From the NCBI GenBank assembly GCA_937129345.1, contig CAKZMZ010000380.1, positions 1 to 32,464 of the forward strand: 32,464 nucleotides of DNA, given 5' to 3'. The notes beneath the pieces are model-generated. The model was not told the DNA's origin, ran no database searches, and saw only the letters and a program-made list of their open reading frames with translations. Source of the stretch: an uncultured Thalassovita sp. Its GTDB lineage: Bacteria; Bacteroidota; Bacteroidia; Cytophagales; Flammeovirgaceae. The position numbers and the translations under genes were made by a program. Shown one piece after another: positions 4,404 to 7,176 of the stretch (position 1 is its first letter; each line of letters opens with the position of its first letter).

Positions 4404-6146
4404 CTATTTCATCACAATTCCCTCTCCCTTTTTATAAGCTACTTTGCCATCTACAATGGTGTATTCAATCTCTGTATCTAGCAAGGCAGATTCTTCAACA
4501 GTCATAATATCTTGAGAAAATACGGTAAAATCAGCCAGTTTGCCTATTTCGATAGAACCTTTAATATCCTCTTCAAAAGCGCCATAGGCCGCATCTAAAG
4601 TGTACGATTTTAATGCCTGCTCTCTCGTCATTTTTTGGCTAGGTTCATACCCGCCTTCTGGCTCTCCTTCTAATGTTTTTCTGCTTACAGAAGCATAAAA
4701 AGAAGCAATAGCACTTACAGGTTCTACGGGTGCATCGGTACCGTTGATCACTGTTGCACCTGTCTGAAGTAGCTTTTGCCAAACATAGGCACCTTCCTCA
4801 ATACGCTCTTTGCCCAAGCGATCAATTGCCCAAGGCCGATCAGAACTCATATGAATGGCTTGTACAGCGGGAATTACGCCCAATGCCCCAAACCTAGGGA
4901 TATCCTGAGCACTGATGTGTTGTGCATGTTCTATTCTAAAGCGGGCATCTTCTGCTTCTTTTGGATGCGCTTCAAAAGCTTCTTCGTAAATATCCAATAC
5001 TTCTCTATTGGTACGGTCACCAATAGCGTGTGTACACACTTGAAACCCATGCTCTAAAGCCTCATTAGATACTTTTTCTACATAAGACATGGGCGTGGTT
5101 TCATGCCCAAAATGCCCTGGTCTGTCTGTATACTCCTCCAAAAGCCAAGCGCCTCTAGAACCTAAGGCACCATCGCCATAGAGCTTTATAGATCGGATGG
5201 TCAGAAAATCATCGCCCAAGCCAATACCAGGGCCTTTAGCATACCAATTGTTCAACAAAGAAGTATCTCGGCTGCTCAACATCACATACAAACGCACCTT
5301 CATTCTTTCTTCTTCAACAAATTTCATAAAAGCAGCCACGGCTAAACTGTCGGAGCCTGCATCATGAAAACTAGTCAAGCCATTTCTCAGACATTCTTCA
5401 AAGGCCAACTCCATAGCCTTACTGTGCGATTCAATGTCTTGCTGGGGCACATGCTTACCCACTATGCCCATGGCCGTTTCATTAAAGATTCCTGTAGGGT
5501 TCCCCAATTCATCCCTAATGATTTCTCCGCCTTCTACTTCTTGCACATCCATCCCTTCTGGATCTATATTGGTTACGCCTGCAATCTCCATAGCTTTGGC
5601 ATTGGCAAAAGCAGCATGCCCACTAGCGTGCCTTAGCCAAACTGGGTTGTCAGGAGAAACTTCGCTCAATTTATCATGGGTCTGAAAGCCTTTGACTAAT
5701 TTTTCAGGTTGCCCATTCCATTTACTCTGATGCCAACCCCTTCCTAAAATCCACTCTCCGGGCTGTGCGGTTTTAGTGGCTTCCTCCACCATAGCCACTA
5801 TTTCATCATAGCTTTTGGTGTTGCTCAAGTCTAAGTTCATGATCTTATAGCCAATACCTAAAAAGTGAGCATGAGACTCAATTAAACCAGGTGTCATGGT
5901 TTTACCTTCTAAATCTAAGACTTGAGTTTCGGGGCCTTGGTGTTTTTGAGCTTCTGCAGAAGTACCTACAAAAGTAATTTTGCCATCTTTTACGCCTATG
6001 GCTTCTGCTTTGGCGTTATTTTCATCAACAGTGTAAATATTCCCATTTATTATGAGCATATCGCAGGGGTCGGATTGCTCACAAGAAGATAGAAAAAAAA
6101 TAGTTGGAAATAGGAGTCCATAAAGGATAATTTTTAATACTTTCAT
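4404..6146 (-). CDS. YtcJ-like amidohydrolase (Amidohydro_3), lipoprotein
   Basis: 580 aa from the ATG at 6146. This start is preferred over an in-frame ATG 13 codons upstream because it begins a clean lipoprotein signal peptide, MKVLKIILYG followed by a hydrophobic core and the lipobox LSSC (lipidated C22). The mature enzyme has the metal-dependent hydrolase marks of the YtcJ family: TPGLIESHAH (H92, H94), a KLYGDGALGSRGA segment near residue 320, HAIGDR, EHAQH and a late NGTDAPVEP aspartate motif. The family hydrolyses amide or ester-type small substrates; the true substrate is unknown. Export makes a periplasmic or outer-membrane location likely. A candidate structured RNA with its own terminator lies immediately upstream. 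Confidence 0.88.
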   Translation of the reverse strand: MKVLKIILYGLLFPTIFFLSSCEQSDPCDMLIINGNIYTVDENNAKAEAIGVKDGKITFVGTSAEAQKHQGPETQVLDLEGKTMTPGLIESHAHFLGIGYKIMNLDLSNTKSYDEIVAMVEEATKTAQPGEWILGRGWHQSKWNGQPEKLVKGFQTHDKLSEVSPDNPVWLRHASGHAAFANAKAMEIAGVTNIDPEGMDVQEVEGGEIIRDELGNPTGIFNETAMGIVGKHVPQQDIESHSKAMELAFEECLRNGLTSFHDAGSDSLAVAAFMKFVEEERMKVRLYVMLSSRDTSLLNNWYAKGPGIGLGDDFLTIRSIKLYGDGALGSRGAWLLEEYTDRPGHFGHETTPMSYVEKVSNEALEHGFQVCTHAIGDRTNREVLDIYEEAFEAHPKEAEDARFRIEHAQHISAQDIPRFGALGVIPAVQAIHMSSDRPWAIDRLGKERIEEGAYVWQKLLQTGATVINGTDAPVEPVSAIASFYASVSRKTLEGEPEGGYEPSQKMTREQALKSYTLDAAYGAFEEDIKGSIEIGKLADFTVFSQDIMTVEESALLDTEIEYTIVDGKVAYKKGEGIVMK

Positions 6147-6182
6147 AGTTTCAATAATTGATATGAGCCGGTAAATTTTAAA

Positions 6183-6212
6183 CAAAAAAACCTGAAAGCA
6201 AAACTCTCAGGC
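6183..6212 (-). terminator. Minus-strand terminator ahead of the YtcJ-like gene
   Basis: On the minus strand CCTGAGAG pairs with CTTTCAGG (8 bp including one G:U pair that would be a mismatch on the plus strand), followed by seven T. It ends about 37 bases before the ATG at 6146. No coding gene lies upstream on this strand, so it must end a non-coding RNA or act as an attenuator in the leader. Confidence 0.7.
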
Positions 6213-6343
6213 TTTTAGTTACAATTAAACCAAGCAATGATGGCCTAAGCCGAACGATGCGGCTTCAATTAATGTAGTATTGAAAAGGGAAACACCATTG
6301 CATGACAAATAAAATTTAGCAGAACGTAAGCTATTTACGCTCT
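6187..6343 (-). ncRNA. Candidate structured RNA or riboswitch-like leader
   Basis: The minus strand folds into several stems. P1 is 6343-6335 with 6329-6321, 9 bp, one G:U. P2 is 6301-6293 with 6242-6234, 9 bp, one G:U. A branch, P4, is 6265-6260 with 6252-6247, 6 bp and 7-base loop. A weaker P3 is 6282-6279 with 6269-6266. The terminator hairpin follows. The G:U pairs in P1, P2 and the terminator would be A:C mismatches on the other strand, which argues for a minus-strand RNA. P2 encloses a multibranch loop holding P3 and P4. The family was not recognised, and the 5' end is uncertain; it may begin near 6303 instead. Confidence 0.5.
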
Positions 6344-6368: not shown

Positions 6369-6773
6369 ATGGAAACCATTATTAGTAATAAGTTTCTGAA
6401 GCTGGATTTTGACAAAGAAAGTAACTGTCTTATATCTATTTGGCAGACTATTAATGACATGCGCGATAGTGACTACCAGCGCTTGTTCTTAAAGTATTAC
6501 GAAGCGGTTGAGAAGTTAAAGCCTACCTACATATTGATCAATGCAGCAGACGCCCAATATGCTATACCTGTAGATACACAGAGGTGGGTAAACCAACAGG
6601 TGTATCCACTATATGAAAAACTAGGAGTAAAAAAAATGGCCATTGTCATGAGCGAGTATTTTGTTGCTCAACTATCCTTTGAGCAAGTAGCGGAAGAAAT
6701 TGAAGTACCTGGCATGGAAGTAGAATATTTTATCAGCCAAAAAAAGGCAATGCAGTGGTTTAAAGAGGAATAG
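6369..6773 (+). CDS. Small SpoIIAA/STAS-like protein
   Basis: 134 aa from ATG 6369, chosen over a TTG start nine bases earlier. Soluble, with no signal peptide or membrane segment. Alternating short hydrophobic strands and helices (YILINAADAQYAIP, MAIVMS) and the closing KKAMQWFKEE helix resemble the SpoIIAA-like (STAS/SEC14) proteins common in Bacteroidota. It shares layout with the protein at 11584-12030: a METI start, a T(Q/K)(R/S)W segment, a (Y/F)(P)xLxxKLG helix and a final A(M/Y)QWF. Function is unknown; a role in binding a partner protein or small ligand is only inferred from the fold. It converges on crcB with a 22-base gap. Confidence 0.65.
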   Translation: METIISNKFLKLDFDKESNCLISIWQTINDMRDSDYQRLFLKYYEAVEKLKPTYILINAADAQYAIPVDTQRWVNQQVYPLYEKLGVKKMAIVMSEYFVAQLSFEQVAEEIEVPGMEVEYFISQKKAMQWFKEE

Positions 6774-6795: not shown

Positions 6796-7176
6796 TTAGC
6801 TCAACAAAAATTTTTGGCCAAGCTTTATGCCTAATAGTAAGGCCAATAAACCAACTAAAATACTTGTGCCACCATAGATAAGGGCATGGTATATTTTTCC
6901 GTTTTTTATTAGCCCCAATAGTTCGTTATCAAAAGTAGAAAATGTGCTGAACCCACCGCAAAAACCTACCATAATTATCAGCCTTACCTCATCGGAAAAG
7001 TTTAGATTACTCAACACAAAAACAGTGGCAAAACCTAAAAAAACACAGCTTAGTGCATTGGCTGTAAAAGTACCTAGAGGAAAAGGGCTTTCGGCTTGAT
7101 TTAGCAACAAGGCCAAGGCATACCGGCAGCAACTGCCTAGCCCTCCCCCCAAAAACACAAAAATTAAGTTCTTCAT
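6796..7176 (-). CDS. crcB: Fluoride channel CrcB (Fluc)
   Basis: 126 aa, the usual Fluc length, with four hydrophobic segments. Conserved signatures are GGGLGSCCRY at the N-terminus, GTFTAN (the pore asparagine segment) in helix 2 and GFCGGFSTFSTF in helix 3, which holds the phenylalanine box and polar track. Fluc proteins are small dual-topology dimers that let fluoride leak out of the cell; a single gene fits a homodimer. One departure is a serine where helix 2 usually has a glycine (TANALSC). Divergent from the hydroxyacyl-CoA dehydrogenase gene. I looked for a fluoride riboswitch in the 132-base spacer and did not recognise one. Confidence 0.93.
   Translation of the reverse strand: MKNLIFVFLGGGLGSCCRYALALLLNQAESPFPLGTFTANALSCVFLGFATVFVLSNLNFSDEVRLIIMVGFCGGFSTFSTFDNELLGLIKNGKIYHALIYGGTSILVGLLALLLGIKLGQKFLLS

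Follow-up and report, generated by a model that had tools for sequence, protein, structure and literature searches.

Upstream of a gene for a YtcJ-like lipoprotein amidohydrolase, the minus strand of a contig from an uncultured member of the Flammeovirgaceae (order Cytophagales) can fold into three stems, called here P1, P2 and the terminator, and the locus raises the question of whether they belong to a small RNA with its own gene or to a leader of the amidohydrolase mRNA. The preliminary description of the window (the whole stretch of 32,464 nucleotides that was analysed) had proposed either. We find that the element is very probably an independent small RNA; the fuller reading of a stand-alone gene with a recA-type promoter, a 13-mer, a terminator and mRNA pairing before start codons seems to us reasonably probable from sequence comparisons. 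In the proposed mechanism, a palindromic operator at fixed spacing from the −7 box would drive an RNA of about 120 nt in which a 5' stem is followed by the invariant 13-mer UUGGUUUAAUUGU and an intrinsic terminator that ends in a T tract at about 6180 (Table 1).

Table 1. Positions in the window of the predicted small RNA gene, its parts and its downstream neighbour.
Feature	Position	Strand	Evidence
Palindromic operator CGTAAATAGCTTACG, core of P1 (6321-6343)	6325..6339	-	exact match of recurring palindrome, fixed TTTG spacing, unit before recA
−7 box TTTATTTG	6306..6313	-	TTTG 15 bases after palindrome; one mismatch to TAnnTTTG
Predicted small RNA, ~120 nt	6180..6303	-	5' end inferred from −7 box; fold z
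5' stem P2 and multibranch loop	6234..6301	-	fold
Conserved 13-mer TTGGTTTAATTGT, proposed pairing seed	6221..6233	-	invariant in 10/10 aligned copies (chosen from model matches for carrying it) and in siblings
Intrinsic terminator, stem and T tract	6180..6216	-	covariation, fold, terminator scan
YtcJ-like lipoprotein amidohydrolase (Amidohydro_3), downstream neighbour outside the RNA gene	4404..6145	-	

The computed fold of the minus strand between 6345 and 6187 (−45.2 kcal/mol, z −3.95, 0 of 200 shuffles as good) agrees with the positions given earlier for the three stems, including P2 as a 9-bp stem around a multibranch loop; in the same shuffle comparison the plus strand reaches a z of only −1.31. 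The predicted RNA has a z of −3.43 (1 of 200 shuffles as good) and the stem fragment of the terminator (6216-6186) one of −5.28, while the segment 6236-6303 folded alone gives −0.68, a value of little information as this fragment lacks the 3' arm of P2. The terminator scan found 2 sites for 0.2 expected, this terminator among them. Judged by sequence only, the element has its own promoter (operator and −7 box) and an intrinsic terminator in an intergenic place. It had been stated that no coding gene lies upstream on the minus strand, and this needs correction: a CrcB-like gene occupies 6796-7176 on that strand, some 450 bases upstream, and a plus-strand gene (about 6369-6773) separates it from the element. 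That the fold is not a known riboswitch, 6S, SRP or tmRNA still holds, since Rfam gave no match at the gathering cut-off in the window or in 10 loci with copies, and none at relaxed thresholds either, and a tRNA and tmRNA search of the window found none. A small protein in place of an RNA was rejected, as the 12-codon frame that starts with ATG in the window copy has, by eye, no ATG in G001, the one other genome of its genus.

DNA-level searches of G001 and of the contig's own genome (G000) returned a syntenic homologue and repeated short matches to P1. G001 preserves the 3' half of the element (89% over 69 bases), and there, as in G011 and G012, a plain hairpin of other sequence replaces P2. 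In a search of 291 genomes of the order, a first covariance model built on the core picked up the 13-mer joined to quite different terminators; most of its low-scoring matches resemble plain terminators and were left out of the counts. A second model matched in 61 of 390 genomes of the order at E≤0.003, of which matches only part were inspected. The exact 13-mer followed by a terminator is present in 17 of the 18 genomes of the family (the exception being G015) and, outside the family, in G018, G020, G039, G054 and G106. Model matches number three each in G000 and G001, and four each in G011, G012, G013 and G016. A wider sample of 395 genomes from across the phylum gave a match at E≤3e-4 in G000 alone, under filters that lose weak matches.

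In the alignment of the ten copies of Table 1, 99.1% of the 108 cells of the terminator stem are paired and 10 of its 12 pairs have changed on both sides; this alignment was fitted to the structure, which favours pairing, and sliding it by one column lowers pairing to at most 58%. The covariation score was reached by 0 of 500 shuffles. The compensatory changes that homologues were expected to reveal are hence present in the terminator stem. The 13-mer stays invariant while the 5' part and the terminator vary in sequence, so that the seed is conserved above its surroundings; its predicted accessibility is not exceptional (openness 0.46, vs 0.43 for the 5' part).

In many siblings the invariant linker is longer, AGGATATTTTAAGGATTATTTGGTTTAATTGTTAAA or a near-identical sequence, and siblings with their own terminators lie at many unrelated places. 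The palindrome precedes 4 of 38 copies, those of G000, G001, G011 and G012, and an exact TAnnTTTG, the usual −7 box of this phylum, lies upstream of only 9 of the 38, a tally that omits two further copies whose T run was too short for the rule. The window RNA would be one sibling of a multicopy family in which most members have other promoters and the longer linker.

What such a family might act on is suggested by the complement of the seed. With at most one mismatch, AACAATTAAACCAA has 106 matches in G000, G001, G011 and G012, vs 41 for the reversed pattern; 14 of them are the RNA copies themselves, and the other 92 were inspected in batches of 80, 11 and 1. A mechanical rule places 15 of the 80 sites and 4 of the 11 just before a sense-strand start codon, a share given without a shuffled control, and some of these sites look spurious (e.g. 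L296 and L351). Many complement matches fall inside reading frames, and coding sequence may contribute part of the excess. Pfam searches of the genes with start-codon sites identified DPBB (RlpA-like) domains in G000 and G012 and LysM in G011, and the G012 orthologue of the LysM gene also carries a site. An orphan gene of 573-579 codons, with no Pfam family above the cut-off, has a complement site shortly before its ATG in 4 of 4 genomes; its proteins are 35-65% identical in their aligned parts, and the leaders hardly align outside the site. Of 40,000 shuffled 14-mers, 2 fit the four leaders equally well, a post hoc figure for a gene that was picked for its match.

The 13-mer would most likely pair with mRNAs just before their start codons, and translation would thereby be blocked; we give such base pairing an even chance. 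Action through a bound protein, with the invariant linker serving as a decoy or sponge instead of pairing with mRNAs, seems unlikely to us: the linker is invariant and multicopy, and in siblings it can form a weak hairpin that takes in part of the 13-mer, but the location of seed complements ahead of start codons, which one gene shows in all four genomes, speaks against it. At three complement sites (L274, L301 and L317) a hairpin and a T run follow directly, and these are possible sponges of the small RNAs.

The 5' end of the RNA depends on how P1 is read. P1 had been described as part of the RNA, which our analysis does not bear out. It is a DNA palindrome, CGTAA-N5-TTACG, placed 15 bases ahead of a TTTG box, and CGTAAATAGCTTACG recurs elsewhere in the genome together with variants. 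Among the 24 palindromes within two mismatches, TTTG lies exactly 15 bases downstream in 8 and within one mismatch in 16, the next best same-strand offset having 2 exact cases. The 34-base unit from palindrome to TTTG has four exact matches each in G000 and G001. Only exact and one-mismatch operator sites were used, because at up to three mismatches the pattern has fewer matches than its reversed control. Since the palindrome keeps a fixed distance to the TTTG box, transcription likely starts after it, near 6303, and P1 is probably not part of the RNA. That P1 is instead an RNA hairpin, a terminator or a 5' domain, with the RNA starting above it, we regard as quite improbable. P1 does fold well alone (z −3.34) and scores terminator-like in the terminator scan, and its counterparts behind ribA in G011 and G012 are longer, perfect inverted repeats with T-rich sequence after them. 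Against this, recA and many other genes have it at the same fixed spacing to TTTG, and no T run begins directly behind P1 in the window copy. A REP-like repeat element was set aside on account of the rigid TTTG spacing and the link to recA.

This link extends over ten genomes (G000, G001, G003, G004, G005, G011, G012, G013, G016 and G017), in which CGTAA-N5-TTACG-N15-TTTG precedes recA; five of the ten RecA proteins were checked with Pfam and the others by their first residues. With a widened gap and one mismatch, the operator matches in 18 of 18 genomes of the family, with a similar control count in most; the recA tally beyond G000 and G001 comes from 40 of these sites, fetched in eleven genomes. 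The recA promoter unit (L095, L109, L224, L238, L245, L253, L254, L257-L259) has looser arms in some genera. In G000 and G001, the unit precedes recA in both and one C5 DNA methylase in each, and also a PARP-WGR protein, a nuclease related to Holliday junction resolvase, polyketide-cyclase-like proteins and small orphan proteins; PARP-WGR stands behind the unit again in G011 and G013. Judged by these annotations, the genes behind the unit are a DNA-damage-like set. Small predicted membrane proteins of 90-120 residues with no Pfam family also occur behind the operator (L099, L102, L100).

It is quite probable, in our view, that the small RNA would be controlled by this recA-class promoter, and from there we infer its induction by DNA damage. 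The palindrome stands before recA and repair genes, as a regulon of a non-canonical LexA (SOS) would require. Neither the XRE+S24 gene, which is the LexA-like candidate, nor the UmuD-like gene has GTAA-N5-TTAC at its locus in either genome of the genus, and the rigid operator spacing would be more expected of an activator. The comparison also exposes a family-wide recA promoter element, whose regulator can be sought directly.

The same unit bears on the relation to ytcJ. In G000, G001, G011 and G012 the operator and RNA occupy two unrelated places, and in the genus of G011 and G012 they follow ribA (named from its sequence), away from the ytcJ homologues of these genomes. The upstream regions of ytcJ homologues in relatives, where a search for the element had been proposed, lack it in other genera: no such leader was seen among the homologues inspected, those of G011, G012, G013 and 13 named relatives (of 24 found). 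The proposed tie to the amidohydrolase is thus not borne out, and of the two readings proposed the independent RNA is supported and the leader is not. A cis-acting ytcJ leader whose terminator attenuates transcription unless a ligand or protein intervenes is highly improbable. In its favour, some 40 bases separate the terminator from the ytcJ ATG in the window, and G001 keeps this arrangement; against it, G011 and G012 have the unit behind ribA while their ytcJ homologues stand elsewhere without a leader, and sibling RNAs occur at many unrelated places. A riboswitch or attenuator of ytcJ was rejected on the ground that unit and gene lie apart in other genera.

Multicopy sibling base-pairing small RNAs include the Qrr, LhrC and csRNA types. 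The family described here is like them in having several copies per genome, one conserved seed, a 5' stem, its own terminator and seed complements at ribosome-binding regions; unlike them, it is limited to this order, has promoters that differ among siblings and has no Rfam match, and we know of no sequence relation to any of them. Its kind is known; the family itself is absent from Rfam, and literature searches on the small RNAs and DNA-damage regulators of these bacteria turned up nothing similar. The best Rfam score was for MicX (RF01808), which has stems and a terminator in similar order; membership was rejected, as it scores 21.9 bits where the gathering score is 75, and P1 falls within the match. 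The mycobacterial promoters of PafBC-type activators control recA and damage genes through a motif fixed in the promoter, and the unit resembles them in that recA and damage genes stand under a motif of fixed promoter place, a likeness of build. For Bacteroidetes, PMC8565304 gives the SOS boxes of non-canonical LexA as CTAA-N5-TTAG and diverged forms. The operator shares with these boxes the four-base arms, the five-base gap and the place before recA and repair genes, and it differs in its GTAA/TTAC arms, its rigid −7 box spacing and its absence before the XRE+S24 gene.

We tentatively, and at somewhat less than even confidence, put forward a wider picture: a new order-restricted family of sibling RNAs would place one invariant antisense seed on different promoters, with the window copy as its DNA-damage arm, through which the recA-class regulator would silence cell-envelope genes (DPBB/RlpA-like, LysM) and the 573-579-codon orphan gene by start-codon pairing. 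If true, this would give a multicopy family of RNAs whose seed and terminator are defined and for which target sites can be proposed, together with a possible RNA branch of a recA-type response in this phylum.

Several siblings have surroundings of their own. In G013 (C1:787073-787866; L242, L143) a sibling lies shortly 3' of an operator-bearing polyketide-cyclase-like gene, as if it could be read from the 3' end of that gene. At G011:C47:309064-309081 (L036/L359) the 13-mer and its flank occur with no terminator after them. Another family of the order has the variant TGTTTATGTTGTTTAATTGTT before a terminator (L171-L174), which may represent a remote branch of this RNA family. Finally, G039 and G020 each have two sibling copies spaced by about 330 bases (L192, L193), and the G039 pair stands, by eye, upstream of a porU-like gene.
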